Assembly (NCBI RefSeq): GCF_002269345.1
Contig: NZ_CP022889.1
Coordinates: 1,178,001-1,242,000, forward strand
Length of the DNA: 64,000 bases
Direction of reading: 5' to 3'
From: Tsuneonella mangrovi
Lineage (GTDB): Bacteria > Pseudomonadota > Alphaproteobacteria > Sphingomonadales > Sphingomonadaceae
Positions 41,956 to 60,104 of this stretch are shown here, in pieces. The translations under genes were made by a program, and so were the position numbers. Below the pieces are notes generated by a model that ran no database searches, was not told the DNA's origin, and saw only the letters and a program-made list of their open reading frames with translations. Each line of letters starts with the position of its first letter. Position 1 is the stretch's first letter.

Positions 41956-41966
41956 AACTCAGACAA
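41956..41966 (-). promoter_or_regulatory. operator-like palindrome, site 1 (GH35)
   Basis: AACTCAGACAA, or TTGTCTGAGTT on the minus strand. It keeps the GACAA half of the locus palindrome TTGTC-n-GACAA; the other half is degenerate. The flank CATATTTGTCTGA is shared with site 5 at 52055-52067. Confidence 0.55.
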
Positions 41967-42004
41967 ATATGGAATTCCTCAAACTCGACTGAAACGGCTC
42001 CAAC

Positions 42005-42015
42005 CCGTCTGACCG
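42005..42015 (+). promoter_or_regulatory. weak operator-like palindrome between GH35 and halogenase genes
   Basis: CCGTCTGACCG keeps the GTCTGAC centre but not the outer TT/AA. It is palindromic and in the divergent spacer. Confidence 0.3.
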
Positions 42016-42091
42016 AATGTCATATCAAGCAGGATTGCAGTCACTTCGCCATTCCATAAGCGCCCACTTTGAGAGATTGAATCTGGGTGCG

Positions 42092-42117
42092 ACTAGTGCA
42101 TAGTCGATTGCCGACTA
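42092..42117. promoter_or_regulatory. nested inverted repeats upstream of the halogenase-family gene
   Basis: GACTA-gtgca-TAGTC (42092-42105) and TAGTCG-attgc-CGACTA (42101-42117) overlap. A further TAGTCGGCAGTC follows at 42141. They lie in the 338-base divergent spacer 41890-42227, where no gene is seen. Operator function is inferred. Confidence 0.35.
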
Positions 42118-42227
42118 CTAATGTCATACAAAAATAGATGGTAGTCGGCAGTCAAGTGATGATCTGAAACGAGTGGCGGTAACGCGATAGATGTGCTGGA
42201 ATGCGAAGCAATGGGAGATCGCAAGGG

Positions 42228-43739
42228 ATGAGTGAGGAGCCGATCGGACGTATAGTTATCGTCGGCGGCGGCACTGCGGGCTGGATGGCCGCCGCGGCTC
42301 TCTCTCGTTATTTCGGTACGGCAGATCGCCGTGTGACACTCATCGAATCCGACGCGATCGGGACCGTTGGGGTAGGAGAGGCGACAATCCCGCCGATCCG
42401 AACATTCAATGCCAAGCTAGAAATTCCCGAAGACGAGTTCCTGCGCGCGACCAACGGCACGTTCAAGCTCGGCATCGAGTTTGTAAATTGGGGTCAAATC
42501 GGCGACCGCTACTTCCACCCGTTCGGCTTTTACGGTCAGGAATTTCACGGGATAGCCTTCCACCAGCTCTGGCTAAGTGAAAGAGAGCGAGGCGGAGGAG
42601 GGAAGATCGACGATTACGCGATGAGCGCAGTCGCAGCAGCTGAGCGCCGGTTCGCCCGTCCCGAACCGGGTATCCAATCCCCACTCGCGCATCTCCAATA
42701 CGCTTTCCACTTCGATGCCAGCCTTTATGCCAGATATCTTCGCAAGCGGGCGGAGGCACAGGGCGTTGAGCGATGCGAGGGGAAGATCGTAAAGGTCCAT
42801 CGCAATAGCGAGAGTGGCGATGTCGACTCGGTCCAGCTTGAAAACGGTGAACGCATCTCAGGAGACATATTCCTCGATTGTTCGGGCTTTCGCGGATTGC
42901 TGATCGAAGAAGCTCTTGGTGCCGGTTACGAAGACTGGAGCCATTGGCTACCTATGGACAGTGCGCTGGCGATGCCGACTGCGAACGCTGGTTCCCCCGA
43001 TCCCTTCACACGTTCGACCGCGCACTCTGCAGGGTGGCAATGGCGAATTCCGCTCCAGCACAGGACAGGCAACGGTCATGTGTTTTGCAGCGAGTACATG
43101 AGCCAGGAAGAAGCCGACCGACTTCTCAAGGAAAATTTAGGGGGCGAAATCCTGAGCGAGCCGCGCTTGCTACGATTCAAGACGGGGATGCGCAAGAAGG
43201 CATGGAGCCACAACGTTGTGTCGCTGGGGCTTTCCTCTGGCTTTCTCGAACCCCTGGAATCAACCAGCATTCACCTGATCCAGAACGGGATCGCCAAGTT
43301 CATTTCGCTTTTTCCCGACCGGTCGATCAGCCCAGTCGAGCGTGATGAATACAATCGCATCATGCGCGCATCCTATGAGGACATCCGCGACTTCATTATC
43401 CTGCACTACAAGGCGACCCAACGCGACGACAGCGAGTTCTGGCGATATGTGCGCGACATGGACATCCCCGAGACACTGAAGCGCAAGTTCGATCTGTGGA
43501 GGTTACACGGGCGGATCTTTCGCGATCAGGCAGAACTGTTCGCTACGCCGAGTTGGGTTGCCGTGATGATCGGGCAGAATATCTGGCCAGGGGGTCATGA
43601 CCCGATCGTAGCTTCGCTCAACAGCAATGAGGTTGCAGCGACACTGCGACACATTGCCAACGCCTACAGCCAGACTGCCAAGCAATTGCCGACACAAGAA
43701 GAATACCTGCGCCGCACTGGTGCGTGGTCAAACGCGTAA
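42228..43739 (+). CDS. tryptophan-halogenase-family flavoprotein
   Basis: FAD-dependent protein of 503 residues. The FAD-binding GGGTAG is at 13-18, the halogenase motif WxWxIP is complete (W270, W272, I274, P275), and the residues equivalent to PrnA Lys79 and Glu346 are present (K80 in GTFKLG, E344 in FLEPLESTS). It therefore has the full active-site set of a flavin-dependent halogenase. No flavin reductase is nearby. Members of this family are regular partners of TonB receptors in sugar loci of Caulobacter, xanthomonads and sphingomonads, with unproven substrates. The start is ATG 42228 with GGGAGA about nine bases upstream; ATG 42201 is possible. Confidence 0.88.
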   Translation: MSEEPIGRIVIVGGGTAGWMAAAALSRYFGTADRRVTLIESDAIGTVGVGEATIPPIRTFNAKLEIPEDEFLRATNGTFKLGIEFVNWGQIGDRYFHPFGFYGQEFHGIAFHQLWLSERERGGGGKIDDYAMSAVAAAERRFARPEPGIQSPLAHLQYAFHFDASLYARYLRKRAEAQGVERCEGKIVKVHRNSESGDVDSVQLENGERISGDIFLDCSGFRGLLIEEALGAGYEDWSHWLPMDSALAMPTANAGSPDPFTRSTAHSAGWQWRIPLQHRTGNGHVFCSEYMSQEEADRLLKENLGGEILSEPRLLRFKTGMRKKAWSHNVVSLGLSSGFLEPLESTSIHLIQNGIAKFISLFPDRSISPVERDEYNRIMRASYEDIRDFIILHYKATQRDDSEFWRYVRDMDIPETLKRKFDLWRLHGRIFRDQAELFATPSWVAVMIGQNIWPGGHDPIVASLNSNEVAATLRHIANAYSQTAKQLPTQEEYLRRTGAWSNA

Positions 43740-43783
43740 CCGCTCTCTCTATACGGCAGGCATCTTCCAATTGACCGGCTCTA

Positions 43784-43794
43784 TTGTCTGACAT
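43784..43794 (+). promoter_or_regulatory. operator-like palindrome, site 2 (DUF3422 gene)
   Basis: TTGTCTGACAT, 10 of 11 matches to TTGTCTGACAA, 38 bases before the ATG at 43833. Confidence 0.6.
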
Positions 43795-43832: not shown

Positions 43833-45119
43833 ATGAACGGCGGCGACGAATTCAAGGCGGCACAGGCGACGGACGATCACCCATTGCGCCGCTCGCTGTC
43901 GTTCGAAATGCACATGCGCAAATTGCCTCACTTCGAGGTGCCAGCTCGCATCCTACAGTTCGTCTACATTGGCACCCCGGGCATTGCGCGCTCCGCGATC
44001 CTCAACTTCCTCGAGGAACGAAGCGCACGAGCCGGTGAGGCAGAATCGAATGAGCCCTTCCTGTCTCAACGGATTGGCGATCTGATGTTCTGTTGGGAAG
44101 CCCATAGTGAATTCTACACAGTCACACTGATCTCTGACGACAAAACAAGCGACCTGTTCGATCTTTCGAGCTTTGGCGAGGCGGGGGCAGCACTGGCGCA
44201 ATTCCCGGGCCAAATCATGCGCTCGACAAACATCAATATATTCCGCTCGACCGACGCCGCTAGCGAGAATGACTGGAGCCAGTTTTTCTCCGAACCCGAT
44301 CTCGTCGTATCCGATGTAAGGGATAGTAGGGCGCGCGTGTGGTGCGACTTCCGACTACACAGCGATGGCTTCGGTCGAATGCTGATCGAAGATCGCGGCC
44401 TGGCCGGCAAGGAGCCGGTCGAGCTGGTCCAGCGGCTCCAGGAGCTCGGCAACTATCGCAAGATGGCTTTGCTGGGTCTGCCAATCGCTAAGCAAAACAT
44501 CACGCGTATCGACACCTTGGAAGCTGAGCTTGCGGAAATTGCTGAGATGCTGTCTGGCGAAACTGTCGCGACCGACCGCGTGATGGAACGGCTAAGCAGG
44601 ATTAGCTCCGAACTTGCCTTGCTATCCGCACAAACGCGCTACCGCATGTCGGCAACTACGGCATATTCAGCAATCGTCGGCGACAGACTCGACAACCTCG
44701 GAGCCACCGCACAGCCTGGGCAAATTTCGCTTACCGAATTTACCGAACGGCGCTTCCTGCCAGCCATCCGGACATGTGAGGCATTCGCTCGACGCCTGCA
44801 GGAACTTTCGCAGCATACTGCCGAAATTTCGGATATGCTGCGCACTCGCATCGACAGCGAACTCTCGCGACGAAACCAGGAGTTGTTGGCTTCGATGGAC
44901 CGGCGAACCGAGTTACAACTACGCCTGCAACAGACGGTCGAAGGCCTCTCGATTGTTGCGATCACATATTATGCCCTGGCAGTCTGGAAGTTCCTCTCAG
45001 GACATGTCGCCGGCGGAGCGGAAGGTAAGATCGCACAGACGATCGATATCGCGCTGGTGGTGATCGTGCCGTTGACCACCTGGTTCGTTCTTCATCGAAG
45101 CAGGCGAGATCGCGACTGA
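43833..45119 (+). CDS. DUF3422 family membrane-anchored protein
   Basis: A 428-residue protein of unknown function that matches DUF3422 along its length: HPLRRSLSFEMHMRKLPHFE, CWEAHSEFYTVTL, DFRLHSDGFGRML, LVQRLQELGNYRKMALLGLP, a long coiled coil, FTERRFLPAIRTCEAF, LRTRIDSELSRRNQELLASM, and RLQQTVEGLSIVAITYY. Two hydrophobic segments at the C-terminus anchor it in the inner membrane, with most of the protein in the cytoplasm. A GGGAGG site is 5-6 bases before ATG 43833. The gene carries the locus palindrome upstream, which ties it to sugar use; no such role is known for the family. Confidence 0.85.
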   Translation: MNGGDEFKAAQATDDHPLRRSLSFEMHMRKLPHFEVPARILQFVYIGTPGIARSAILNFLEERSARAGEAESNEPFLSQRIGDLMFCWEAHSEFYTVTLISDDKTSDLFDLSSFGEAGAALAQFPGQIMRSTNINIFRSTDAASENDWSQFFSEPDLVVSDVRDSRARVWCDFRLHSDGFGRMLIEDRGLAGKEPVELVQRLQELGNYRKMALLGLPIAKQNITRIDTLEAELAEIAEMLSGETVATDRVMERLSRISSELALLSAQTRYRMSATTAYSAIVGDRLDNLGATAQPGQISLTEFTERRFLPAIRTCEAFARRLQELSQHTAEISDMLRTRIDSELSRRNQELLASMDRRTELQLRLQQTVEGLSIVAITYYALAVWKFLSGHVAGGAEGKIAQTIDIALVVIVPLTTWFVLHRSRRDRD

Positions 45120-45215: not shown

Positions 45216-47333
45216 ATGAGCGGGATGTACCGCATCTTGGGCAATTTGCTTGCGATCTTTGCGTCGATCGCCACTGCCTTTCCGGCGGCAGCTGCCAACG
45301 AGGGCGGTCCGCAGTTGCCGAAGACAGTGCTCTACGGCGTTGCCTATTACGACGAATACACCCCGGTCGATCGCGTTGAGCAAGATGCCCGCATGATGCA
45401 GGCGGCGCATATCACGGTGGTCCGCATTGCCGAATCGACCTGGGGCACGCTCGAGCCGCAACCGGGTGTGTTCGATTTCAGCCATGTAGACCGGGTTCTC
45501 GATGCCATGCATCGGCACGGCATCCGCGTGATCGTCGGCACGCCCACCTACGCCATCCCGACGTGGCTTGCGCGCGAGCATCCTGACGTGCTTGTGACCC
45601 GAGCAGATGGGCAAGCCAAGTTCGGCTACCGCCAAAACATGGACATCACCAACCCGAACTACCTCGCCGCCGCGAAGCGTGTGATCGTGGCGCTGGTGAG
45701 CCATGTAAAAGATAACCCTGCAGTCATCGGCTACCAGATCGACAACGAAACCAAAGCCTACGGCACGGCAGGGCCGAATGTGCAGGCGGCCTTCGTTGCC
45801 GCGATGAAGAAGAAGTGGCCAAGCCTTGAGACGCTCAACAGAGCGTGGGGGCTCGACTACTGGAGCAACCGCATCAATCGCTGGGAGGATTTCCCTTCAA
45901 CCAACGGGACGATGAATGCGAGTGTCGGCAATGCCTTCGCCGAGTTCCAGCGCGGACTGGTCACCGAATTCCTCGCCTGGCAAGCGGCATTGGTGCGCAA
46001 GCATGCGCGGCCGGACCAGTTCATCACCCAGAACTTCGACTTAGGTTGGCGTGGCTATTCATACGGCGTCCAACCAGAGGTCAATCATTGGGATGCGGCT
46101 CGAGCCCTCGATATTGCCGGCGTCGACATATACCATCCGACGCAGGATGATCTGACCGGGGCCAATATAGCATTCGGGGGTGACCTCACACGATCGCTCA
46201 AGAACGGCCAGAACTACCTCGTTATGGAGACCGAGGCGCAAGGTTTCCCGCAATGGACACCTTACCCTGGGCAGTTGCGCCTGCAGGCTTTCAGCCACCT
46301 CGCATCGGGCGCGAACATGGTGGAATACTGGCACTGGGCGACCACACAAAATGCGGTTGAGACCTACTGGCGGGGGCTTCTCACCCAGGATTACCAGCCG
46401 AACGAACTCTATGAGGAGGCCAAGGGCATCGGCGCCGACTTTGCCCGGTTAGGCCCGACCCTCGTCAACATGAAGAAGGAAAACCAGGTTGCAATCTACG
46501 TCAGCAACCGGGCGCTAAGTGCTTTCGATTGGTTCAAGCTGCCGGGCAATCATGACTACAATCAAGTGATGCGCCCGTTTTACGATGCGCTCTATCGGCA
46601 GAATATCGAGGCCGACATCGTATCTCCGGACGAACATGCGGACCTGAGCAAATACAAGATGATCGTCGTTCCTGCGCTCTATGCCGCGAGCGACGCCGAA
46701 ATCGCCAAACTCAACGCCTACGCCAAGAATGGCGGGCACCTCGTTTATACTTTCAAGAGCGGGTTCTCCGACGAAAATACAAAGGTCCGCTATACGACCC
46801 AGCCAGGCGACATAACCGCCGCTGCTGGCGTGACCTACCAGCTCTTCACAGAGCCGAAAGGCGTGTCGCTCGACACCGATCTTTACGGCCTGTCTGAAAA
46901 GGACTTGCAAGCTCGCTGGTGGATGGAGTTCATCAAGCCGACTACTGCCCAGGTTCTAGCCCGATACAAGCACCACAGCTGGCCCGCCTATGCAGCCATC
47001 ACCCGCAATGAATATGGCAAGGGCGAAGTAACCTACATCGGATTCATGCCGAGCGATGCTTTGATCGCGCGGCTGCTGGCCGACACTGCCCATCGCGCAG
47101 GGGTTACATGGCCGGTATCGGCGCATTTCCCGCTGATCGTTCGTAGCGGCCTGCTCACTGACGGTCACCGAGTGCATTACCTGCTCAACTATTCTCGCGA
47201 GCCAGTGACAGTGCCGGCAGCCTTAGCTGTAGGGACCGACCTGATCGACTGCAAATACCACGATTCCCCGTTCCAGATAGGTCCGTGGGGCGTCGCCATC
47301 CTTCGCGATAGCAGCCTGGCAAACGGCCAGTAA
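45216..47333 (+). CDS. GH42 family beta-galactosidase, exported
   Basis: Hydrolyses beta-galactosides, here probably galactan side chains. The signal peptide is MSGMYRILGNLLAIFASIAT followed by AFPAAAANE. The catalytic barrel holds acid/base E178 in YQIDNETKAYG and nucleophile E338 in LVMETEAQG; the GH42 trimerisation domain follows with NAYAKNGGHLVYTF, and a C-terminal beta domain. The start is ATG 45216, with GGGGAGG eight bases upstream; TTG 45192 is less likely. The length is 705 residues. It is 24 bases before the GH43 gene, so one transcript. Site 3 lies upstream. Confidence 0.9.
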   Translation: MSGMYRILGNLLAIFASIATAFPAAAANEGGPQLPKTVLYGVAYYDEYTPVDRVEQDARMMQAAHITVVRIAESTWGTLEPQPGVFDFSHVDRVLDAMHRHGIRVIVGTPTYAIPTWLAREHPDVLVTRADGQAKFGYRQNMDITNPNYLAAAKRVIVALVSHVKDNPAVIGYQIDNETKAYGTAGPNVQAAFVAAMKKKWPSLETLNRAWGLDYWSNRINRWEDFPSTNGTMNASVGNAFAEFQRGLVTEFLAWQAALVRKHARPDQFITQNFDLGWRGYSYGVQPEVNHWDAARALDIAGVDIYHPTQDDLTGANIAFGGDLTRSLKNGQNYLVMETEAQGFPQWTPYPGQLRLQAFSHLASGANMVEYWHWATTQNAVETYWRGLLTQDYQPNELYEEAKGIGADFARLGPTLVNMKKENQVAIYVSNRALSAFDWFKLPGNHDYNQVMRPFYDALYRQNIEADIVSPDEHADLSKYKMIVVPALYAASDAEIAKLNAYAKNGGHLVYTFKSGFSDENTKVRYTTQPGDITAAAGVTYQLFTEPKGVSLDTDLYGLSEKDLQARWWMEFIKPTTAQVLARYKHHSWPAYAAITRNEYGKGEVTYIGFMPSDALIARLLADTAHRAGVTWPVSAHFPLIVRSGLLTDGHRVHYLLNYSREPVTVPAALAVGTDLIDCKYHDSPFQIGPWGVAILRDSSLANGQ

Positions 47334-47357
47334 TCTCCCGAGGGCAGAGGAAAAGAA

Positions 47358-48497
47358 ATGTTCAAACCACTCAACTCATTGCCGATCGTTGCGGTCGTGG
47401 TCGTGGGTCTTAGCGGCTGCGCCCACTCGCACGCTGCGAGCGTGTCCGACGCAACGCAGACCAATCCGCAACTCCAGATCGTCAAATCGATTGCGTCGAC
47501 GAAGCAGTCACGCAAGGACAGTGCCGGAGCGAAATCGGCCTACCTGCTGACCTACTTCAAGGACGAGACCCACTCGCTCTACTTCGCAACGTCGCGCGAC
47601 GGATACACGTGGACCGATGTCAACGGAGGCAAGCCGGTGCTGTCGGGTTACGGTATTGCTGAACAACACGGCATCCGTGACCCGCACATCATCCGTGGCG
47701 CAGACGGGGTATTCTACCTGACGATGACCGATCTGGACATCTACGGGCAGCGCGATGGCTATCGCACTACCGAATGGGAAAGAGCGGGCGACAAATACGG
47801 TTGGGGCAACAACCTCAACCTCATCTTCATGAAGTCGTATGACCTGATCCACTGGACGCACGCAGAGGTCACAATCTCGAAGCTGTTCGCCGATTACGCT
47901 GATGCCGGCTGCACCTGGGCGCCACAAACGATCACCGACCCCGACAATGGACGAATGATGGTCTACTTCACCACCCGGCACGGCGACGGGCCGAATTTCA
48001 TGGTCTGGTCGTATGCAAACAAGAACTTCACTTCGCTGGTGACCGATCCAAAACAGATCCTCTATTATCCGGACGCCAAGGTGAACACGATCGACGCCGA
48101 CATCACCAAAATCGGCGACACCTACCACATGTTCTATGTCGCCCACGATAATCCCGGCAACATCCACGAGGCACTGTCGCACGACATCAACAAGGGATAC
48201 GTCGCCGAGCGCAAGAAGGTCGATCCAGAGCCGAAGGCGGCCGAAGCGCCAAACCTTTGGCATCGCTTCGGCACCAACACCTACGTACTGATGTACGACG
48301 TGTTCGGCGCGGACCCGCACAACATGGGCTTCGCCGAAACAACCGATTTCAAGACCTTCAAGAACATCGGTCGATTCAACGATCCCGATTCACCCATGCG
48401 CGCGACCAATTTTTCCGGCCCCAAGCATGGGGCCGTGATGCCAATCACGCCTGCCGAAGCCTCCGAAATAGAGAGTTATTTCGCAACTCGCCAATAG
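47358..48497 (+). CDS. GH43 family glycosidase, lipoprotein
   Basis: Five-bladed propeller glycosidase of 379 residues; members act on arabinans, xylans or beta-1,3-galactan. The lipobox LSGC places the lipid on C21. The catalytic base is D108 in GIRDPHI, the pKa-setting Asp lies in NTIDADITKIG, and the acid Glu is in AEAPNLW. Given the neighbours, exo-galactanase or arabinofuranosidase is likely, but the subfamily was not fixed. AGAGGAAAAG precedes ATG 47358. Second gene of the GH42 transcript. Confidence 0.86.
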   Translation: MFKPLNSLPIVAVVVVGLSGCAHSHAASVSDATQTNPQLQIVKSIASTKQSRKDSAGAKSAYLLTYFKDETHSLYFATSRDGYTWTDVNGGKPVLSGYGIAEQHGIRDPHIIRGADGVFYLTMTDLDIYGQRDGYRTTEWERAGDKYGWGNNLNLIFMKSYDLIHWTHAEVTISKLFADYADAGCTWAPQTITDPDNGRMMVYFTTRHGDGPNFMVWSYANKNFTSLVTDPKQILYYPDAKVNTIDADITKIGDTYHMFYVAHDNPGNIHEALSHDINKGYVAERKKVDPEPKAAEAPNLWHRFGTNTYVLMYDVFGADPHNMGFAETTDFKTFKNIGRFNDPDSPMRATNFSGPKHGAVMPITPAEASEIESYFATRQ

Positions 48498-51900: not shown

Positions 51901-52002
51901 AGCGACAGTCGAAGCATCATCGGTCGATTGCGCGTGAGCAGGCATCGCAGCCAGCATCAGCGGCAGAGTAGCAACGGACATCAAAAGCGGAAAACGCCGC
52001 AT
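48907..52002 (-). CDS. TonB-dependent receptor, carbohydrate type
   Basis: Outer-membrane transporter of 1031 residues. The signal peptide ends at AHA-QS (residue 24). Residues 34-52 form an unusual Lys/Ala-rich stretch (AAKKAKDKKEAAAKKKAEA), then a Ser/Thr/Gly linker, a TonB-box-like GAIVVSGIRASL near 81-92, the plug with DAIVAEDIGKLPDNTAAE and VLIRGLPDVATTYNGREIF, and the beta-barrel ending in YGLALRWRFGE with a terminal-type strand. This plug style is typical of Caulobacter/sphingomonad oligosaccharide receptors. Three operator-like sites lie upstream, more than for any other gene, so it is probably the best-controlled gene of the locus. A strong terminator follows. Confidence 0.94.
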   Translation of the reverse strand: MRRFPLLMSVATLPLMLAAMPAHAQSTDDASTVAAKKAKDKKEAAAKKKAEATASASAQGTGAAETTGNTTGVTGETASDGAIVVSGIRASLTSSQSIKKNADQIVDAIVAEDIGKLPDNTAAETIARIAGVQVVRYNDEASQVLIRGLPDVATTYNGREIFTAELRRVQLQDFPSQAISAIEVYKSGSADQVEAGLAGLVNVRTRRPLDFKGMVIAGGIHGTYNDQSRKFDPDYNLLFSDRWQAGDGEMGFLANVTFAQSQYYNGVRYNSTWIRDDLWSDFGTQGNHVRDGVFGSNDATGLFYFPNNIGIYNEHGRRYRPSANFSFQWDPNPDTDIYVEGIYQGFRGRGQTDNVDVPLELWGPNGTPPVFTNVVLKDGQSYSDTAFTGPGAYDPNTVPQAASLTKTSGSEPQGWRRADNNYTNTFQIASGASWRGEQVKLSTDFAYSWSEYRDDSSSLDWRATGADPLTVDAAFAVDGGVSFNFPNWNQFDPTTYLWRGYYQSVYWVRGSGWQWRGDMDWDTGSSFLSKVQVGVRLTERKAAMVENYARYAYTMDLGIPYTDLPIGELSKTLDPFRGNAQGFTQWLSASGDSIYTNKEALRQYSYNALLQLQALYPQNDYSQAIQDWSTPDVQAPSTSGWRAKENTWAGYAQGHYNFDVGTLQVDGLLGIRAVLTDGHTFGTSSVCLRNFPNSTTDFSCTQTLTPRTERQNYLDWLPNASMRIKFTDKLQLRLGWTYTRTKPDFAQLNPALQIYPVSYSPCGVPTDPNYDPTDITSCRHPGTIYPSYSGSQGNPELKPFTSKNYDASLEWYFSRTGYASAAVFYHDIYGFTTNVTRYKNDPVYGVLQLSTPINAGDASIKGFELNLQSFLDFLPSPWNGFGVQANLTYLEGKSRYPNGYDPNTDTFTGPGEYLKIPGLSKWTYNLTGFYEKGPIQARISYNWRSSWVSWYNLDPQTGNQYTGGGVYARSRLDASFSVKLTKNFTVNADVSNILAKPFHDYVNYKPGGYYTQDIRDEGRYYGLALRWRFGE

Positions 52003-52032: not shown

Positions 52033-52043
52033 TTGTCTGACAA
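52033..52043 (-). promoter_or_regulatory. operator-like palindrome, site 4 (TonB receptor)
   Basis: TTGTCTGACAA, the perfect 5+1+5 palindrome and best copy of the locus, 31 bases before the receptor ATG. Confidence 0.7.
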
Positions 52044-52059
52044 ACTGGCTAACCCATAT

Positions 52060-52070
52060 TTGTCTGACTT
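52060..52070 (-). promoter_or_regulatory. operator-like palindrome, site 5 (TonB receptor)
   Basis: TTGTCTGACTT, centred 27 bases from site 4; nine of eleven matches. The two sites could bind two dimers on nearly the same DNA face. Confidence 0.6.
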
Positions 52071-52206: not shown

Positions 52207-53691
52207 TTAGCGGCAAGGCGATTGGCGCGGGTCGCGATACAAAACGACCGTCGAGATCGATCTCGGCGGCGCGATGCGCCCTGCAACGCAGGCTGCATTG
52301 TGGTCGAGATCAGTCGCTACCAAAGCGAATTTCCAGCCTTGAGGTAGGTCCAAATTTCGCGCGACTGGTCCGGCATTCACGTGCACCAAAACGATTCTCT
52401 TACCATCGGGTCCAATCGCGCCCACAGTGTCGGGATCGGCAACCGGCAGGAGCCGAAAGCCCGGGCGAATGAACCGACTGAACTGAGCCATCGCCCAATA
52501 CTTCTTGGTGATCGTGATCCGGTGGTCTTGATCGGAAGGATCTCGCAGGTCAGCTTTGACCAGGCCCCAGTTCGTGCCCTTGCGACCGTCGATAGCGCTG
52601 ATGGTTTCAACAGCCTGCCAGAACACCCACGCTGACGGCTCGAGCCGTTTCAAATCGCGCACAACGTGTTCGGCAAACGCGATCGGAGTGTCCATGCCCT
52701 CGAAGTCTTCCGGTTCCCCGGCAAGCGGCGTATCGTCTTCGCTCATCCACAAGCGAAGTCCCTGCGACCGAGCAATGTCGCGTACCGCAGTCTGGTTCTG
52801 CGTGCCGTAACTATGGACATTGATCTGCCCAATGTCCTGGCGCGCCTCTTCCGGATATGCCTCCCAGTCTTTGACGAACAACTGTGAGCTGGTCTCGTCG
52901 GGTGCGGCCACTACTGTTGACAGGCCGCGATGCTTCAGTGCGTCGGCCGTCGCCATGATCATGCGGGCTTGGCTGGCCGGATCCCAATGCGATCCCTCCT
53001 GGGTGTTGCTCGCATGCCAGTAGTTCGTGCCCGGCTCATTCACCGGAGATAGTGTGCGAAATCGGATCCCGTCTCGCTCCTGCAGCTGCTGAACTACGGT
53101 GGCGAGATAGTCGGCGAACTTTCCCTCAAAGCCCGGACGAAGGTTGTCTTCGTCACCCTTCTCGTTTCCTGAAACTCGACCCGATATGGTCATGAAATAC
53201 GGCGGCGAATTGGAGAACGCTTCGAAGATCGGATGATCGACCCGCCGTTTGATTGCGCCGAGCCACCAGCGTTGGTTGGTATCGGCGTGCCAGTCCCACA
53301 TTGACGGATCGGCAGGGTCCCACCAATCCTTACCCGTAGTGCCAGCCGGTCGCTTCCAGAACCCAGGGACAGCGGCCCCGACCCTCATGCAGTCCGATGT
53401 GTCGGGAGAATTGCCGCCACCAATATTATAGCGCGCGATGTTCCAGCCGAGACCGCTAGGGCCGTAGAAGAGATCTGCGAGCCGCTCTCGCTCCGGTTCA
53501 GGCCAACCGCCCGTGACGTTCGCGAACCACGCCAGCGCTGTGCCCCAACCCTCGAACACCGGCCCACGATGTGCGAGGTCGGGACTGAGGTCGATTTCGA
53601 CAACACGATCGGGCCTAGCCGGTGCCTCGGCTAAGCTCGTGGCAGGCAATCCCAGCAATACAATCAGTGCAGCAGCGATCGCCAACTTCAT
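52207..53691 (-). CDS. GH30 family endo-beta-1,6-galactanase-like hydrolase
   Basis: Exported hydrolase of 494 residues. The signal peptide is MKLAIAAALIVLLGLPATSLA. The family opening is FEGWGTALAWFANVTGGW with LGWNIARYNIGGG; the acid/base is E219 in SPVNEPG and the nucleophile E318 in LWMSEDD. This sequence style is that of GH30 subfamily 5, whose described activity is endo-beta-1,6-galactanase. It would cut the 1,6-galactan side chains of arabinogalactan proteins. The start is ATG 53691, overlapping the GH27 stop by four bases; the frame is open to 53775. Last gene of the dgoK operon. Confidence 0.84.
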   Translation of the reverse strand: MKLAIAAALIVLLGLPATSLAEAPARPDRVVEIDLSPDLAHRGPVFEGWGTALAWFANVTGGWPEPERERLADLFYGPSGLGWNIARYNIGGGNSPDTSDCMRVGAAVPGFWKRPAGTTGKDWWDPADPSMWDWHADTNQRWWLGAIKRRVDHPIFEAFSNSPPYFMTISGRVSGNEKGDEDNLRPGFEGKFADYLATVVQQLQERDGIRFRTLSPVNEPGTNYWHASNTQEGSHWDPASQARMIMATADALKHRGLSTVVAAPDETSSQLFVKDWEAYPEEARQDIGQINVHSYGTQNQTAVRDIARSQGLRLWMSEDDTPLAGEPEDFEGMDTPIAFAEHVVRDLKRLEPSAWVFWQAVETISAIDGRKGTNWGLVKADLRDPSDQDHRITITKKYWAMAQFSRFIRPGFRLLPVADPDTVGAIGPDGKRIVLVHVNAGPVARNLDLPQGWKFALVATDLDHNAACVAGRIAPPRSISTVVLYRDPRQSPCR

Positions 53692-55055
53692 GACAGGCGA
53701 TAGAGCACCGAGCCATGCGGGACGATTTCCGCCTCGACGCGACGGTCCGCTCCGCCAATCTGTTCGCGTTGCCACAAGTCTCGCACGGTCACGCTTCGCT
53801 CGATGCCCAGAAATTTCAGATCCACGCCCACCCGCCGAGTGCTATCACTCGGATTGAACATCGCAAGATAATGATCGCCGTTGGTCGCGCGCGCCCGCCA
53901 GATACGAGCCACATCGTCCAAGAACATTGGGCAGTTAGACGTTGATTGCTGGCTGACGGCAACGACCTCAGGATTGGTCAGCAATGCCTTGGTCGCTTCG
54001 TCGAGGTGGCGAAGGTCACCACCCATAATCAGTGGTGAGCGCGCAATCGCCCATAAGGTCATCAGTGTTTGTTGCTCGTCCGGGGTGAATTTGGTGTCCC
54101 TTTGACCCAAATGCAGCCTTCCGAGCGGCAGCATGTCGGCATCAGGCCACGATCCGGGGCCCATGTACCGGTTCCAGTTTTCAAGCCGCGTGAACTGGGC
54201 CGAAAGCATCGACCATTCATCCCAGAAGTCATCCGAAATACGCCACATCTGCGCGAACTTCTGGGCATGCGCTCCGCGCGCGACTGGGGTCTCGCCGGGC
54301 GACATGCTGAGGATCATCGGTCTGCCTGTCTTGCCTATCGCACGATGGATTGCCTCGATCTCGGGAGCGTGTGCATCGAATGGACGAGACAAGTCGTCGA
54401 CCTTGACGAAATCGACGCCCCACGATGCCAGCAATGCGAAGACGCTGTCGTAGTACGCTTGCGCACCCGGCTTCGTCATGTCGACACCGTACATGTCGGG
54501 GTTCCAAGAACAGGTGCTGGTGGTGTCGGAGACAGCCTGAGCCGTTGTTTTCGTCCCGAAGACCGGCAGGTTGCGTTCGACCGCAAGCCGCGGAATGCCT
54601 CGCATCAAATGCACTCCGAACCGTAGTCCCAAGGCGTGCACGCTTTGAGCGAGGGGGCCAAAACCTTTCCCGCCCTTGCTCGACGGAAAACGATTGGGCG
54701 CGGGCAACAGCCGACCGAAGCGATCCATGGTCGGCAACGGTTTCGCATCGTAGTCGTAACTCGATGCATTGGGCTCGTACCACTGGATATCGACCGTAAA
54801 GACATCGTAACCCGCCGGCAGCAATTCCCGCGCCATAATGCTCGCCTGTTCACGAGCTTCGACTTCGGTGATGGTGGTGGCGAAACTGTTCCAGCTGTTC
54901 CAACCCATTGGCGGCGTCGGTGCGAGCAAGTCACCTTGAGTGCTGGCACTCGCATGTGCGGGTATGGGTCTTCCGGCGGCCAGGGTCGTCCCGGCGGCAA
55001 GTCCGGCCGAACTGCCCAGCAAAGTCCGACGGGTAAGGCCCTCGCCCTTGGTCAT
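53688..55055 (-). CDS. GH27 family alpha-galactosidase-like enzyme, Tat-exported
   Basis: Hydrolase of 455 residues. The N-terminus LTRRTLLGSSAG with a hydrophobic run is a twin-arginine signal, so it folds before export. The GH27 opening is PPMGWNSWNSF (49-59); the nucleophile is D220 in VDFVKVDDLS and the acid/base Asp is in RISDDFWD (R272, D275-276). GH27 also contains beta-L-arabinopyranosidases, which would equally suit arabinogalactan. Four-base overlaps join it to gal upstream and GH30 downstream. Confidence 0.87.
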   Translation of the reverse strand: MTKGEGLTRRTLLGSSAGLAAGTTLAAGRPIPAHASASTQGDLLAPTPPMGWNSWNSFATTITEVEAREQASIMARELLPAGYDVFTVDIQWYEPNASSYDYDAKPLPTMDRFGRLLPAPNRFPSSKGGKGFGPLAQSVHALGLRFGVHLMRGIPRLAVERNLPVFGTKTTAQAVSDTTSTCSWNPDMYGVDMTKPGAQAYYDSVFALLASWGVDFVKVDDLSRPFDAHAPEIEAIHRAIGKTGRPMILSMSPGETPVARGAHAQKFAQMWRISDDFWDEWSMLSAQFTRLENWNRYMGPGSWPDADMLPLGRLHLGQRDTKFTPDEQQTLMTLWAIARSPLIMGGDLRHLDEATKALLTNPEVVAVSQQSTSNCPMFLDDVARIWRARATNGDHYLAMFNPSDSTRRVGVDLKFLGIERSVTVRDLWQREQIGGADRRVEAEIVPHGSVLYRLS

Positions 55056-55993
55056 TCGTGGAATTCCTCGACCGAGGTAATTGCGCCGCAGAGAAATGCG
55101 TCTGCGACGAGCCGCAGCGGGCTTACGTCGACATCCGAAATTCCGGCGCGGATCAGCGCAAGGAAGCGCCGATAGATCCCGGGGTATTCTCCGGCGAGAT
55201 CGCCCTCTTCGGCATGGACTTGCTCACCGCCAATGAACAGCTCGGCTCCGCCTTTGGCGAGCCGCAATTCGCCGCCATCGGTGTCGACGAATATATCCCA
55301 ATGCTGCGGCCCCTCCTGGCGGAAATCGAGATCCATATCGATCGTCACATCCCGTCGATCACGCAATGTCATTTGCGCGGCGATCGGAGCGCCGAGGTTC
55401 GACGGAAATTGCAGGGCTGAAGATTCCACGAACAGCGGCCGAGGAAGAATGCGGGTAATGATCGAAAGCGCATTGATGCCAGGGTCGAAGACCCCGAACC
55501 CGCCCGATTTCCAGATCCATGCCTGACCGGGGTGCCAGACACGTACATCTTCACGCCACACAATCCGCGCGCTGCGGATTGTCTTGTCGGCCAGCCAGGC
55601 AGTTGCCGGCTCGACCCCGCGCGCGAATTGCGAATGCCAGGCGGTGAAGAGCGTCAACTTCCGTTCAGCGGCAGACTCACGAAGCGCCACAACCTCTGCT
55701 AGGGTAGCACCAGGGGGCTTCTCGAGAAGCACGTGCCAGCCCTGATCAAGCGCCTGTTGCGCTACATCATGGCGCACTTGCGGCGGCGTGCAGACCGATA
55801 CTGCATCGACCTCGATTCCGCTTGCCACCAACTCTTCTATGCTGCGGAAGAACGGCAGATCTGGTTCGCCCTCTCCCGCGCGATCGACCGTCGCAACAAG
55901 GTCGAATGCCTTGCTTTTGGCAACCGCGGGTAAATGCTGGTCATGGGCGATCTTGCCCAAACCGACGATGGCAAGTTTGACAGGAGCAGTCAT
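55052..55993 (-). CDS. gal: D-galactose/L-arabinose 1-dehydrogenase (Gfo/Idh/MocA family)
   Basis: Cytosolic NAD(P)-dependent oxidase of aldoses at C1, 313 residues. The Rossmann motif is GLGKIAHDQHLPA, the catalytic-region motif is EKPPGATL, and the segments WREDVRVWHPGQAWIW and GGFGVFDPGINALSI match the Pseudomonas fluorescens galactose dehydrogenase closely as I remember it. L-arabinose has the same configuration at the relevant carbons, and enzymes of this group often accept both sugars. ATGA overlaps join it to araD1 and GH27. The product lactone would go to the SMP-30 enzyme at 60161. Confidence 0.88.
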   Translation of the reverse strand: MTAPVKLAIVGLGKIAHDQHLPAVAKSKAFDLVATVDRAGEGEPDLPFFRSIEELVASGIEVDAVSVCTPPQVRHDVAQQALDQGWHVLLEKPPGATLAEVVALRESAAERKLTLFTAWHSQFARGVEPATAWLADKTIRSARIVWREDVRVWHPGQAWIWKSGGFGVFDPGINALSIITRILPRPLFVESSALQFPSNLGAPIAAQMTLRDRRDVTIDMDLDFRQEGPQHWDIFVDTDGGELRLAKGGAELFIGGEQVHAEEGDLAGEYPGIYRRFLALIRAGISDVDVSPLRLVADAFLCGAITSVEEFHE

Positions 55994-56985
55994 AGGACTT
56001 TGACCTCCACCGCAGTTTGCTCCGCTTGCGCAAGGCGATTTCGCACCGGCAACGCGAAGGGAGCGGCAGATATCTCGAATTCGTCACCGATCCGCGTACT
56101 CACGCCATCTGCGAACGAGAGGGTCGCTGTGCCGAAGAAGTGTACGTGAATGTCTCCCGGACCTCGGAAGCCGGCATATTTGAAATGGTGGGCTTCTAGG
56201 TTGGCGAGGCTGTGTGACATATTGTCTTCGCCGGTCAGGAAAGGCTTCTCCCAAATGCACTTTCCGCCCCGGTAGATCCGGCTGGTGCCGCGAATGTCTT
56301 GCGGAACTTCGCTTAGCAGGAGCTCCGCTCCCAAAGCAGCCGGGCGAAGTTTTGAATGCGCGAGCCAGAGGTAATTGTGGCGCTCAGTAATGTGATCGCT
56401 GAATTCGTTCGCCAGTGCTATACCAAGCCGGAAGGGGGTCCCGTCGTCGCCGATCAAATAGATGCCGGCCAATTCTGGCTCTTCGCTTCCGTCGAGCGCA
56501 AAGCCAGGCGAAGTCAGGTTGTCGCGCGGTCCAACCAGTGTCTGGCCATCGCCTTTGAAGAACCATTCGGGTTGCTGGCCGGATTCACCCGCAACAGGTT
56601 TTCCGCCCTCAACCCCTTCGAGAAACATCTTCATCGAGTCGGTCTGGCTGTCGCTATCGGCCATTGCCTTGTGCATCTTGTCGCGGCCCTCGGCGGAACC
56701 GAGATGGGTCAGCCCTGTGCCTGTCATCAGCAAGTGCGCGGGATCTTCGTGATCGATCGCCGGCAGAAGATGCCCAGCCTCAAGTTCTGCCGCCAGGTCA
56801 ACCTTTTCGCTCGCGCGATATTCGCGCGCCAAGTCCAACAGGCTGCGGTGCGAAGAAATAGCCTCGCCGGCCAGTTCCCGCGTAGTGTGCGGCCCGGACA
56901 GGATCGATGCCGCGCCATCTTCAGCGAGGATCAATCGCCGAGCGCCGTCGTCGGCGCGATGTTGGATCAGGCGTGCGTGGGTCAT
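55990..56985 (-). CDS. araD1: AraD1-type 2-keto-3-deoxy-L-arabonate dehydratase (FAH superfamily)
   Basis: A 331-residue enzyme of the fumarylacetoacetate-hydrolase fold, of the GguC/AraD1 group. It begins ARLIQHRADDGARRLILAED, and the catalytic half has NEFSDHITERHNYLWLAHSK and GDIHVHFFGTATLSFADG. The expected step is 2-keto-3-deoxy-L-arabonate to alpha-ketoglutarate semialdehyde, which the dehydrogenase at 58544-60076 would then oxidise. The activity of the group is taken from its annotation and context. The start is ATG 56985, overlapping the dgoA stop by four bases; the longer open frame to 57462 is antisense to nothing useful and covers dgoA. Confidence 0.82.
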   Translation of the reverse strand: MTHARLIQHRADDGARRLILAEDGAASILSGPHTTRELAGEAISSHRSLLDLAREYRASEKVDLAAELEAGHLLPAIDHEDPAHLLMTGTGLTHLGSAEGRDKMHKAMADSDSQTDSMKMFLEGVEGGKPVAGESGQQPEWFFKGDGQTLVGPRDNLTSPGFALDGSEEPELAGIYLIGDDGTPFRLGIALANEFSDHITERHNYLWLAHSKLRPAALGAELLLSEVPQDIRGTSRIYRGGKCIWEKPFLTGEDNMSHSLANLEAHHFKYAGFRGPGDIHVHFFGTATLSFADGVSTRIGDEFEISAAPFALPVRNRLAQAEQTAVEVKVL

Positions 56986-57614
56986 GTCAGTTTCCTTACG
57001 GCGCGGACAAGCGCCTCGGCATCTGCGGCGACCGTCGCCGCGTCCTTGCCTGGCTTGTAGAGATTGGAACCAAGCCCGAAGCCGTCGGCGCCGACGTCGC
57101 GCCAGCTTTGCATCGTGGTTTCGGAAATGCCCCCCACTGCGAGCACCTTGGTGCCCTGAGGCAGCACCGCGCGCTGCGCTTTGAGCATGGCGGGCGATGC
57201 GCCGTCGGCGGGAAACAGCTTGAGCGCACTGGCCCCGCTGGAAAGCGCCGCGAAGGCCTCGCTTGAAGTATAGTAGCCCGGCAGACTGACCATCCCGGCA
57301 GCCAGGGTCGCTTTGATCACCGCCGTATCGACATTGGGCGAAACGATGAATTGGCAGCCGACCGATGCAACCTCGGCGACCTGTGCAGGAGTCAGGACCG
57401 TACCGGCGCCGATCATGGCTCTGCCAGCCAAGGCTTCTGCGAGGATGCCGATCGACTTGCACGGGTCTGGCGAGTTGAGCGGAACTTCAATGAGAGTGAA
57501 ACCGGCTTCGACCAGAGCCTCGCCAATGGCCGGCGCTTCGGCAGGCGTGAGCCCACGGAGTATGGCGACAAGCGGGCAAGCAGCGAATGCTCTTTCGAAT
57601 TGAGCGTGGTTCAT
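56982..57614 (-). CDS. dgoA: 2-dehydro-3-deoxy-6-phosphogalactonate aldolase
   Basis: Class I aldolase of the KHG/KDPG family that splits KDPGal into pyruvate and glyceraldehyde 3-phosphate, the last step of the De Ley-Doudoroff route. It has 210 residues. The general base E43 lies in LIEVPLNSP and the Schiff-base lysine K132 in ALKLFPADG; GAGTVLTPAQV and VAVGGIS-type phosphate loops are present. The start ATG 57614 shares four bases with the dgoK stop. Confidence 0.94.
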   Translation of the reverse strand: MNHAQFERAFAACPLVAILRGLTPAEAPAIGEALVEAGFTLIEVPLNSPDPCKSIGILAEALAGRAMIGAGTVLTPAQVAEVASVGCQFIVSPNVDTAVIKATLAAGMVSLPGYYTSSEAFAALSSGASALKLFPADGASPAMLKAQRAVLPQGTKVLAVGGISETTMQSWRDVGADGFGLGSNLYKPGKDAATVAADAEALVRAVRKLT

Positions 57615-58489
57615 TGCGCGCTTTCCCAAATTGCATGGATGCCCGCAGCAAATGAGGCTTGTGAGTCGATTGGAACGGTGCGGCCACCTGCATATTCAAT
57701 GGCCTGCGCATAGAGGGCGGCCAGAGAGCCCGAAGCCAGAAGGAACACGTCATTACCATCAATATCGTTGCGTGCCGCAACATCGGAACCGATAAGCATC
57801 CCACTGACATAGGAAGCGGCTTCGCTGCGATCCATCAGGCCCAGCAAGCATGACGCGCGAGCCGAAAAAAGTGCAGTCACGAGATCGCAGGCAGCTCGGC
57901 TTCGTTTCAGGCCTGCGCTGAAGGCCGGACCGATCGCGGGTTCACCAACGATCATTTCGGACAGGATCGAATGCTGCCGGAGCAATGAATACAATTCACC
58001 TGTCATCGCCGTCGCAAAGGTCTCGATCCGGCCGCCGCTGACCTTGATCCACTTATTGTGCGTGCCCGGTTGGCAGAAGAGCCCATCTTCGGGGACCAAT
58101 CCCGCGGCCAATGCGCCAAACACCTGTACTTCTTCTCCGCGCATGACGTCTGCATGACCGACGACCCGCTGTGCAACCCCGGGAACAAGAAAGACGTTCT
58201 CGCCACAGTCGGTGACCATTTCTGCGAGCGTCGACAATTCTATCGGTGCACTGCAATAGGGTACCTCGCGCCAGCCTCGGCTCGAACCGACCATGCCTGC
58301 CGCAATGATAGGGAATGCACCGAAGCGTTCGCGAATTGCAGAGAATTCTCCGGAGTATGCCATGGCGGACATTGCCAGAACCCCGCGATCATCGCGTTCG
58401 CTACGCACAACAAGCCCATCCGCGCGCATCAGATAGATGCGGCGATTGGTCGTACCCCAGTCGATAGCGATGTAATCACCGCCAGACAC
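57611..58489 (-). CDS. dgoK: 2-dehydro-3-deoxygalactonokinase
   Basis: Phosphorylates 2-keto-3-deoxy-galactonate at O6. It has 292 residues; the ATPase fold opens with YIAIDWGTTNRRIYLM, followed by GMVGSSRGWREVPYC, VPGVAQRVVGHADVMRGEE and FCQPGTHNKWI, all typical of DgoK. First gene of the coupled run dgoK-dgoA-araD1-gal-GH27-GH30. Its own operator-like site lies 24 bases upstream, in the 54-base gap after the aldehyde dehydrogenase gene, so it can be driven separately from that gene. Confidence 0.94.
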   Translation of the reverse strand: MSGGDYIAIDWGTTNRRIYLMRADGLVVRSERDDRGVLAMSAMAYSGEFSAIRERFGAFPIIAAGMVGSSRGWREVPYCSAPIELSTLAEMVTDCGENVFLVPGVAQRVVGHADVMRGEEVQVFGALAAGLVPEDGLFCQPGTHNKWIKVSGGRIETFATAMTGELYSLLRQHSILSEMIVGEPAIGPAFSAGLKRSRAACDLVTALFSARASCLLGLMDRSEAASYVSGMLIGSDVAARNDIDGNDVFLLASGSLAALYAQAIEYAGGRTVPIDSQASFAAGIHAIWESAQ

Positions 58490-58512
58490 CGCAAACTCCC
58501 ACTGCCGCTTAT

Positions 58513-58523
58513 TTGTAAGACAA
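58513..58523 (-). promoter_or_regulatory. operator-like palindrome, site 7 (dgoK operon)
   Basis: TTGTAAGACAA, a variant that keeps TTGT-n3-ACAA with one changed inner base, 24 bases before the dgoK ATG. Confidence 0.55.
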
Positions 58524-58543
58524 TAACGAAGTCCTCGATGGCG

Positions 58544-60076
58544 TCAAGCAGGATTCCCATCGAGCAGTTTGGGAACATCGCTTCCATCGCGCAGCTCGGG
58601 CGCAAGCAGGCTGGCAGGAATATCCTGATAGCAAACCGGGCGCAGGAAGCGCTCGATCGCCAGTGTCCCGACCGATGTCGTTCTCCCATCTGAAGTCGCC
58701 GGGAATGGGCCGCCGTGGACCATGGCATGAGCCACTTCCACCCCCGTTGGCCAGCCGTTCGCCAGGATCCGACCGCAAGTCACCTCCAGAATCGGTAGAA
58801 GCGCGCGCGCATCCTCGATGTCGGCATCTTCAAGATGGAGCGTAGCCGTGAGCTGGCCCTCCATTGCCGTGAGCACGGCCTTCATTTCGGCCAGGCTCGT
58901 GCAACGTACGACAAGAGAAGAAGCCCCGAAGACTTCCTCGGCTAGGCCGGGTTGCGCAATGATGTCATGAGCAGCGACGGAAAACAGCTGCGCTGCCGAA
59001 CAGGTCGTACCATCGCCTTCCTTCCCGGTTGCGACGACAATTGTTTCAGCCTCTTCGGCAAGCCGTGCGCGACCAGCATCGTACGCCGCGCGGATGCCGG
59101 TCGTCAGCATGGTCTGCGGTTCATTGCCTGACAATGCGTTGCTCGCAGCCCTTATGAATGCCTCGAGCCCCTCGCCTTCTATTGCCAGCACCACCCCGGG
59201 GTTTGTGCAAAACTGGCCGGCGCCGAGCGTCAGCGAACCAACGAATGCGGTGCCCAACTCGGCCCCTCGTGCAGCCAATGCCGCTGGCAAGAGGATGACT
59301 GGGTTCACACTCGACATTTCGGCATATACGGGGATTGGGACTGGCCTCTGCTGAGCGATCCGGCACAATGCCAGCCCGCCCCCTCGCGACCCTGTAAAGC
59401 CGACGGCGGCAATGCGTGGATCGTTCACCAAGGCTTCGCCCAACTCGTTTCGGGGACCGCGTACATGGCCGAAAACACCGTCAGGCATGCCGGTCTTTTC
59501 TGCAGCGCGCACGATCGCCTCCGCAACCATAGAATCGGTTCCTGGATGAGCCGGATGACCTTTGACGACCACCGGGCAGCCAGCGGCCAGTGCCGATGCA
59601 GTGTCCCCTCCGGCAGTCGAAAATGCGAGCGGGAAGTTGGAAGCACCGAAAACGGCCACCGGACCTACTGGAATCATTCGCATCCGCAGATCAGGACGCG
59701 GCAAAGGCTGGCGATCGGGCATTGCCGGATCGATCCGCACGCCGCGCCAGCGATCTGCCCGCACGACTTGGGCGAATAACCGCAATTGATTGACCGTGCG
59801 GCCGCGCTCGCCAGTCAGGCGCGCTAGCGGCAGGCCGCTCTCGATGACGGCCCGTTCGAGCAGAGCATCGCCGAGCGCCATGATCTCGTCACCGATCGCT
59901 TCGAGGAACAGGGCACGTGATTCTGAAGGTATGGCGCGGAAGCTGTCGAATGCAGCTTCGGCTGCAGAACAAGCCGCAGCCACGTGGTCCAGCGAGCTGA
60001 CGCTGAATTCGGGCTCGATCGGTTGGCCTGTCGCAGCTGCGTAGCCGCGAAACGCTTTCAGATTGACCTGCTCCAT
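58544..60076 (-). CDS. alpha-ketoglutarate semialdehyde dehydrogenase (aldehyde dehydrogenase family)
   Basis: NAD(P)-dependent aldehyde dehydrogenase of 510 residues. The catalytic Cys is C290 in GAGQFCTNPG and the general-base Glu is E253 in VYAEMSSVNPV; the cofactor region has VAVFGASNFPLAFS and VGFTGSRGGG. This spelling of the motifs matches the sugar-acid type KGSA dehydrogenases. The product is alpha-ketoglutarate, the end of non-phosphorylating L-arabinose oxidation. The start is ATG 60076 with GAGA upstream; ATG 60088 is in frame. Divergent from the SMP-30 gene with a shared operator-like site. Confidence 0.87.
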   Translation of the reverse strand: MEQVNLKAFRGYAAATGQPIEPEFSVSSLDHVAAACSAAEAAFDSFRAIPSESRALFLEAIGDEIMALGDALLERAVIESGLPLARLTGERGRTVNQLRLFAQVVRADRWRGVRIDPAMPDRQPLPRPDLRMRMIPVGPVAVFGASNFPLAFSTAGGDTASALAAGCPVVVKGHPAHPGTDSMVAEAIVRAAEKTGMPDGVFGHVRGPRNELGEALVNDPRIAAVGFTGSRGGGLALCRIAQQRPVPIPVYAEMSSVNPVILLPAALAARGAELGTAFVGSLTLGAGQFCTNPGVVLAIEGEGLEAFIRAASNALSGNEPQTMLTTGIRAAYDAGRARLAEEAETIVVATGKEGDGTTCSAAQLFSVAAHDIIAQPGLAEEVFGASSLVVRCTSLAEMKAVLTAMEGQLTATLHLEDADIEDARALLPILEVTCGRILANGWPTGVEVAHAMVHGGPFPATSDGRTTSVGTLAIERFLRPVCYQDIPASLLAPELRDGSDVPKLLDGNPA

Positions 60077-60093
60077 CGAATCTCTCATATAAT

Positions 60094-60104
60094 TAGTCAG
60101 ACAA
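60094..60104. promoter_or_regulatory. operator-like palindrome, site 8 (between KGSA dehydrogenase and SMP-30 genes)
   Basis: TAGTCAGACAA, one change from the perfect TTGTC-n-GACAA, 18 bases before the leftward ATG and 57 before the rightward ATG, so it could control both genes. Confidence 0.6.

Follow-up and report, generated by a model that had tools for sequence, protein, structure and literature searches.

Does a short palindrome that recurs between the genes of a sugar-utilisation locus mark the promoters of one regulon, and which protein would recognise it? The question is raised by a locus of Tsuneonella mangrovi, whose single-contig genome is 2.70 Mb long. The window, which is the whole stretch of 64,000 nucleotides that was analysed, corresponds to C1:1178001-1242000, and coordinates above 64000 continue past its end (64781 is C1:1242781). 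The sugar locus spans 40309 to about 82195, approximately 42 kb or about 1.6% of the genome. A sequence-only reading of the window had listed eight copies close to TTGTC-n-GACAA in intergenic gaps, and had proposed that one GntR/FadR-type regulator encoded outside the window controls import, depolymerisation and catabolism together. The analysis reported here makes it very likely that these palindromes are the operators of one locus-encoded GntR/FadR-family (FCD-domain) repressor, which controls the 42-kb arabinogalactan-type utilisation locus.

Enrichment and placement of the palindrome

When up to two mismatches were allowed, TTGTCNGACAA had 37 matches in the window, compared to 17.1 +/- 3.9 in shuffled sequences, and none of the 100 shuffles reached 37. 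The 1,024 palindromes of the form ABCDE-n-E'D'C'B'A' were each tallied at up to one mismatch in promoter-proximal positions, which were defined by a simple purpose-made gene caller, and were ranked by their Poisson excess over 400 kb of the focal genome. TTGTC-n-GACAA ranked first in the locus (6 compared to 0.18 expected), and it was also first in 19 orthologous loci (15 compared to 1.85 expected). By raw count, it ranked first in the locus and 25th in the 19 orthologous loci.

A 17-column site matrix was trained on 16 sites, all from other genomes. Since the training sites were chosen for their likeness to the motif, the matrix result is a test of transfer between genomes and not a de novo discovery. 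Outside the locus, the genome was read in an evenly spaced 400-kb sample, in 20 stretches (19 at pattern matches and one at a second FCD gene) and in short loci, approximately 0.51 Mb with overlaps. Ten matrix sites of at least 15 bits were present in the promoter gaps of the locus compared to none in the 400-kb sample, in which the top match scored 14.5 bits and three matches reached 13 bits. The core-gene region of the window (1-40300), in which the sequence-only reading had noticed no copies, held no site of 12 bits or more. The motif was not found at equal density in these parts of the genome. In the whole genome, an A/T-flanked 17-mer pattern, built after the sites had been seen, fell inside the 42 kb at 4 of 4 places with up to one mismatch and at 9 of 13 with up to two; at up to three mismatches it had 63 genome places, compared to 23 for the reversed control. 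The exact word with T or A at its centre occurred at two places in the genome, both within the locus.

The predicted operators (Table 1) are matches in non-coding gaps; matches within genes, such as those at 51644, 59124 and 67722, were left uncounted. All eight copies of the sequence-only reading were recovered, seven of them (43784, 45169, 52033, 52060, 52144, 58513 and 60094) within the matches at up to two mismatches and the one at 41956 by its matrix score. The list was nevertheless incomplete, lacking 42121 and, past the window, 64781, 69196 and 77911. A weak site that had been placed at 42005 scored 2.7 bits and was dropped, and 42121 is the better site in that gap. The site at 41956 differs from TTGTCNGACAA at three positions and looks weak when judged by perfect symmetry, but many loci of Methylobacterium, Caulobacter, and Sphingomonas carry the same ACTCAGACAA variant as the operator between their transporter and epimerase genes. 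The scores of 52060 and 52144 fall inside the range of the best background matches.

Among the tabulated gaps, sites of at least 13 bits occupied all five divergent gaps and none of the five convergent ones; of the nine tandem gaps, four had such a site, namely those in front of the DUF3422 gene, GH42, the receptor gene and dgoK. What looks like a long gap from dgoK to GguC holds the gene of an aldolase of the 2-keto-3-deoxy-6-phosphogluconate/2-keto-3-deoxy-6-phosphogalactonate (KDPG/KDPGal) type, at 56982-57629, and therefore the genes from dgoK to GH30 may form a single operon controlled from the site at 58513. The distance from site to start codon was 23-87 bp in 11 of 13 cases; the other two were 102 bp (42121) and 147 bp (52144). 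Moreover, a sigma70-like predicted promoter, TTGACC-16-TATAGT, overlaps the operator at 64781, and the site overlaps the predicted -10. Therefore, the short distances and the promoter overlap suggest a repression geometry.

The probable regulator and the conservation of the sites

A GntR/FadR-type regulator outside the window, as the sequence-only reading had proposed, was found in the middle of the block, 4.4-5.1 kb past the window end (Table 1), and orthologues of it are accompanied by the same catabolic genes and sites. The domain make-up of the FadR subfamily, an N-terminal GntR winged helix and a C-terminal FCD domain, was found in the protein, and the operator form of the subfamily was found in its putative sites, which read TTGT-C-n-G-ACAA with A/T flanks. 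Operators of the FadR subfamily combine a TKGT box with an ACMA box, and the GT and the AC are usually separated by 3 nt (PMC4494728). Between 40309 and 83590, 31 open reading frames (ORFs) were run through Pfam, one of them probably antisense and one truncated; no second transcription factor was recognised among them, the GntR + FCD protein being the only one. The genome has four GntR-domain matches, three of which are over the cut-off, and two FCD domains over the cut-off. The second GntR + FCD gene (C1:1421431-1422000; L011, L105) adjoins, by eye, genes for a major facilitator superfamily (MFS) transporter and a propeller-repeat protein. The 10 kb surrounding this second FCD gene held no site above 11.9 bits. 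Since no strong TTGTC-n-GACAA lies near it, the second FCD protein should use another operator.

The best solved-structure match of the regulator was 7c7e (E 4.8e-35). This is the structure of DgoR, the FadR-family regulator of Escherichia coli for D-galactonate, whose metal triad is D146, H150, and H195 (PMC7674646). The triad is kept in the locus regulator, and the Asp-x3-His and the second His were kept in 20 of 20 aligned regulators; no third His was seen by eye at the expected FCD place in the regulators, as in DgoR. The two proteins also have the operator frame TTGT-n3-ACAA in common; however, DgoR IR1, which contains TTGTAGTACAA (PMC12288454), is of the TTGTA-n-TACAA type, whereas most locus sites have C and G beside the centre. 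A further difference is that the stretch around DgoR R179/W181 reads as an invariant WTTxFK-like motif in the orthologues, for which two alignments give different registers. DgoR serves the dgo operon, whereas the locus regulator would serve a 42-kb locus.

A likeness in the operator word was found with LhgR of Pseudomonas putida W619, a GntR-family regulator for L-2-hydroxyglutarate. The LhgR footprint covers TTGTCTGACAA within the promoter of LhgR itself and TAGTCTGACAA within a different fragment (PMC8206213); the former is identical to the word at 52033 and 69196, and the latter is that at 60094 save for the central base. However, LhgR, as described there, governs L-2-hydroxyglutarate catabolism, whereas the locus regulator would govern sugar genes. 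AraR2 of Halomonas, by the passages available (PMC5507952), is a GntR-family regulator predicted by genome comparison for oxidative L-arabinose (L-arabinonate) genes, in which it resembles the predicted control described here; those passages, however, name no receptor or glycosidase genes for AraR2.

TonB-receptor carbohydrate utilisation loci of Gram-negative bacteria unite a TonB receptor, an inner-membrane importer, glycosidases and catabolism in one block. The present locus differs from them in that a single regulator of the FadR family seems to serve nine promoter gaps; no match to SusD, two-component or extracytoplasmic function (ECF) sigma proteins was found among the 31 ORFs given to Pfam. 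No published description of this regulon in sphingomonads was found among the matches listed (subscription papers, RegPrecise and supplements being outside the scope), and an earlier prediction is possible. A local FadR-family catabolic regulon is a familiar kind of bacterial gene switch and is here well supported, with the DUF3422 gene and two halogenase-like genes as unusual passengers.

The regulator (E <= 1e-40) was found in 42 of 199 family genomes, the focal genome included, and in 0 of 3 other genomes of the genus in the sample; therefore, the locus is patchy. In the 19 orthologous loci, it is accompanied, in varying sets, by dehydratase, MFS importer, epimerase, GguC-type, Gfo/Idh, GH51, GH43 and TonB-receptor genes, and the dehydratase, where present, is 78-86% identical. 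GTCnGA(C/G)TATAT was kept in the MFS/epimerase gap of 11 of 12 aligned loci, and L068 and L076, which lie outside that alignment, share the gene pair. Furthermore, a matrix site of 16.6-22.4 bits was found in 6 of 6 MFS/epimerase gaps without a training site (window, L064, L066, L068, L076, and L080); L082, which is without the MFS/epimerase pair, had no matrix site. The best 80 of 580 related loci were kept, all of them named, and the matrix test was run on the 76 that share no context with any training site. In these 76 loci there were 101 matches of at least 15 bits, compared to a mean of 5.0 (maximum 45) for 60 column-permuted matrices, and 48 of the 76 loci carried such a site, compared to a mean of 4.2 (maximum 25).

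Among these best 80, the closest relatives of the regulator were those of Qipengyuania algicida (81%) and Aurantiacibacter luteus (79%), the latter belonging to the Erythrobacteraceae. In A. luteus, most of the block from GH42 onward is kept in nearly the same order, with protein identities of 42-84%, and each of the 7 gaps that match was found to have a site (GH42, receptor, dgoK, alpha-ketoglutaric semialdehyde (KGSA) dehydrogenase/SMP-30, MFS/epimerase, GntR/GH2, and GH43/nucleoside hydrolase-like). In the pairwise alignment, 6 of 7 sites stood in the same column, 52033 being the exception, and identity was 67 of 75 at site positions compared to 452 of 602 outside the sites. The sites are thus kept in related species, a point on which the sequence-only reading had made its proposal depend. 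Counterparts of the GH35-like, the first halogenase-like and the DUF3422 genes were not seen in 57 kb of A. luteus.

The pathway, the proposed control and its alternatives

The block is, as had been read earlier, a locus for import, depolymerisation and catabolism, but its enzymes point to L-arabinose with D-galactose and not to galactonate alone. At the gene-family level, the oxidative L-arabinose/D-galactose pathway set was found, namely a 1-dehydrogenase, a lactonase, an IlvD/Edd dehydratase, and then a C5 branch (2-keto-3-deoxy-L-arabinonate (KDA) dehydratase and KGSA dehydrogenase) and a C6 branch (DgoK and aldolase), with putative substrates. The sugar dehydrogenase matched D-galactose (340 bits) and L-arabinose (313-317 bits) 1-dehydrogenases of known structure. 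The best match of the dehydratase was an entry named galactonate dehydratase; in NCBIfam it was over the cut-off for general dihydroxy-acid dehydratase models only and under it for the L-arabinonate dehydratase model. GguC/AraD1 scored 494 bits against a cut-off of 340. Since the aldehyde dehydrogenase stayed under the cut-off for all 25 NCBIfam models shown, its KGSA substrate is assigned from the context. Judged by sequence, GguC/AraD1 and the aldehyde dehydrogenase would form the L-arabinose branch, and DgoK and the aldolase the D-galactose branch. GH127, GH51, GH43, GH42, GH2, and GH27 suit the removal of arabinose and galactose, and the substrate is probably a plant sugar polymer of the arabinogalactan type, as the enzymes suggest.

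Because enzymes of oxidative L-arabinose/D-galactose catabolism lie together with arabinofuranosidases and galactosidases in the locus, the trigger is probably an aldonate. We infer that, without substrate, a dimer of the regulator would bind TTGTC-n-GACAA, either at the promoter or a little downstream of it, and would shut off the outer-membrane receptor, the glycosidases, the MFS importer, both catabolic branches and its own gene. L-arabinose and D-galactose released from the polymer would be oxidised by a common dehydrogenase and lactonase, and the resulting aldonate (L-arabinonate and/or D-galactonate) would bind the Asp-His-His metal site of the FCD domain, whereupon the DNA would be freed. 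By analogy with DgoR, the effector is probably an aldonate sensed by the DgoR-like Asp-His-His metal site, and the regulator is a candidate aldonate sensor. The aldonates of L-arabinose and D-galactose have the same configuration at C2-C4. We speculate, quite tentatively and with some doubt, that a DgoR-like repressor lineage widespread in Alphaproteobacteria may sense the aldonates of both sugars via one metal-centred pocket, that a single switch may coordinate import, depolymerisation and both branches, and that the DUF3422 and halogenase-like proteins may be true working parts.

Several findings weigh against the reading of the palindromes as operators of one locus-encoded repressor. At up to two mismatches, TTGTC was first in the locus and ninth in the orthologous loci, with GC-rich palindromes ahead, probably because the background for the 19 orthologous loci came from the focal genome. 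Far from the locus, an 18.0-bit match, TTGTCGGACAA, lies inside a called gene at C1:2302030 (L006:1501-1511), which is probably a chance match, and a 14.9-bit match lies inside a called gene at C1:199076. Five of the nine tandem gaps are without a site; three of these measure 24-41 bp, the 187-bp GH5/S9 peptidase gap is already beyond the locus, and one is filled by the aldolase gene. The site at 52033, the sole perfect one before the receptor gene, was not kept at the aligned A. luteus position. Moreover, 28 of the 76 named loci were without a site of 15 bits or more, and the 76 loci are not independent, because close relatives are among them. In the 199 family genomes, no separation between the 42 that carry the regulator (median 9, read from the table) and the rest is visible in the whole-genome pattern counts.

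The palindromes could be a chance or compositional feature of A/T-rich gaps, since the 11-mer is short and the genome holds 78 copies of it at up to one mismatch, compared to 54 for the reversed control. However, the 400-kb sample held none of the strong sites that the promoter gaps of the locus hold, and both the permuted matrices and the cross-species conservation contradict this explanation, whose probability we consider negligible. A second GntR + FCD gene is present in the genome and sites of the FadR subfamily have a common form (PMC4494728), and so the sites may belong to another regulator, for example this second FCD protein, while the locus GntR protein controls its neighbours only. 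Nevertheless, the second gene has no comparable site in the 10 kb around it, and in records of Sphingomonadales, Caulobacter, and Methylobacterium the sites are found together with orthologues of the regulator that the locus encodes; an assignment to another protein is thus very improbable.

The geometry bears on whether the regulator is a pure repressor. The centres at 42121 and 52144 lie well upstream of the start codon, as might be seen with an activator or a dual-acting protein, but the other 11 distances and the site over the predicted -10 are those of repression, and DgoR, the best structural match, is a repressor. An activating or dual role is thus unlikely. With control by one locus-encoded repressor, look-alike words become a regulon that can be tested, since its regulator is identified, its operator is defined and nine promoter gaps are known, and the DUF3422 and PF04820 halogenase-like genes of this group become linked, through their regulation, to the use of plant polysaccharides.

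Features of the locus and further observations

Table 1. Predicted operators and genes of the sugar locus (bit scores of operators are from the other-genomes matrix; positions above 64000 lie past the window)
Feature	Position	Strand	Placement	Support
Predicted operator AACTCAGACAA	41956..41966		Divergent gap GH35-like/halogenase-like	16.0 bits
Predicted operator ATGTCATACAA	42121..42131		GH35-like/halogenase-like gap, upstream of PF04820 halogenase-like gene	15.5 bits
Predicted operator TTGTCTGACAT	43784..43794		Before DUF3422 gene	19.8 bits
Predicted operator ATGTCCGACAA	45169..45179		Before GH42-GH43	20.5 bits; aligned-position site in A. luteus
Predicted operator TTGTCTGACAA	52033..52043		First of three before TonB receptor	19.1 bits; perfect palindrome
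Predicted operator TTGTCTGACTT	52060..52070		Second before TonB receptor	14.0 bits; 11-mer identical in A. luteus alignment
Predicted operator AAGTCTGACAA	52144..52154		Third before TonB receptor	13.2 bits; aligns with 14.3-bit A. luteus site
Predicted operator TTGTAAGACAA	58513..58523		Before dgoK operon	19.4 bits; aligned-position site in A. luteus
Predicted operator TAGTCAGACAA	60094..60104		Divergent gap KGSA dehydrogenase/SMP-30	21.6 bits; aligned-position site in A. luteus
Predicted operator of MFS transporter gene	64781		Past window	21.0 bits
Predicted operator TTGTCTGACAA	69196		Past window, between regulator gene and GH2 gene	21.0 bits; perfect palindrome
Predicted operator	77911		Past window	22.3 bits
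GntR/FadR-type regulator (GntR + FCD), 244 aa	68380-69114	-	Past window	PF00392 64.3 bits, PF07729 85.3 bits, both over cut-off
GH35-like glycoside hydrolase with DUF5597	40309..41889	-		PF18120 83 bits; PF01301 24.7 bits, under cut-off 27
Flavin-dependent halogenase-like protein	42228..43739	+		PF04820 647 bits
DUF3422 protein	43833..45119	+		PF11902 389 bits
GH42 beta-galactosidase + GH43/32-like gene	45216..48497	+		PF02449 265 bits; second gene: just 26-bit PF00251 match
TonB-dependent receptor	48907..52002	-		PF00593, PF07715; TIGR01782 571 bits
Likely operon dgoK - KDPG/KDPGal-type aldolase - AraD1/GguC - L-arabinose/D-galactose 1-dehydrogenase - GH27 - GH30	52207..58489	-		PF05035, PF01081, NF040903 494 bits, PF01408 + PDB, PF16499, PF14587
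Aldehyde dehydrogenase, probable KGSA dehydrogenase	58544..60076	-		PF00171
SMP-30 sugar lactonase	60161..61045	+		PF08450 254 bits
GH127 beta-L-arabinofuranosidase	61038..63389	-	Downstream of MFS transporter gene	PF07944 408 bits
MFS sugar transporter, GluP/FucP type	63386..64000	-	Runs out of window	PF07690; TIGR01272 260 bits, over cut-off

Outside the locus, a 14.5-bit match, AATCTGTCAGACACAAT, lies at C1:533176 (L088:2077-2087), 20 bp before a glutathione S-transferase-like gene. It was the sole gap match of at least 14 bits outside the locus in the approximately 0.51 Mb read, and it is a probable chance match. The matches at C1:1467676 (14.5 bits) and C1:1075547 (14.4 bits) both lie inside called genes. 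Within the locus, a 16.3-bit match at 78019 lies approximately 67 bp inside the gene that starts at 77952 and could be an auxiliary site. At 67722 (L008:7722; L008 coordinates carry this offset), a TTGTAGGACAAATG-like word of 11.4 bits lies near the 3' end of the dehydratase coding sequence, and likewise in A. luteus (L188:2000); this word probably reflects the conservation of the protein.

The DUF3422 gene has its own predicted operator within the polysaccharide regulon. The halogenase-like gene of Table 1 is one of two PF04820 genes in the regulon, the other being L008:18943-19900, and some related loci also have similar genes close to the regulator. Q. algicida has a second cluster (L189, G200:C15:112001-131000), approximately 55-64 kb from the regulator, which holds GH51, TonB-receptor, halogenase-like and aldehyde dehydrogenase genes together with five sites of at least 15 bits, one of them within a GH51 gene; the regulon thus appears to be split in this species. 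Two ORFs of the locus were without any Pfam match, L008:7830-8342 (170 aa) and L008:16135-16833 (232 aa), and the former corresponds to an ORF of 42% identity in the equivalent position of the A. luteus locus.

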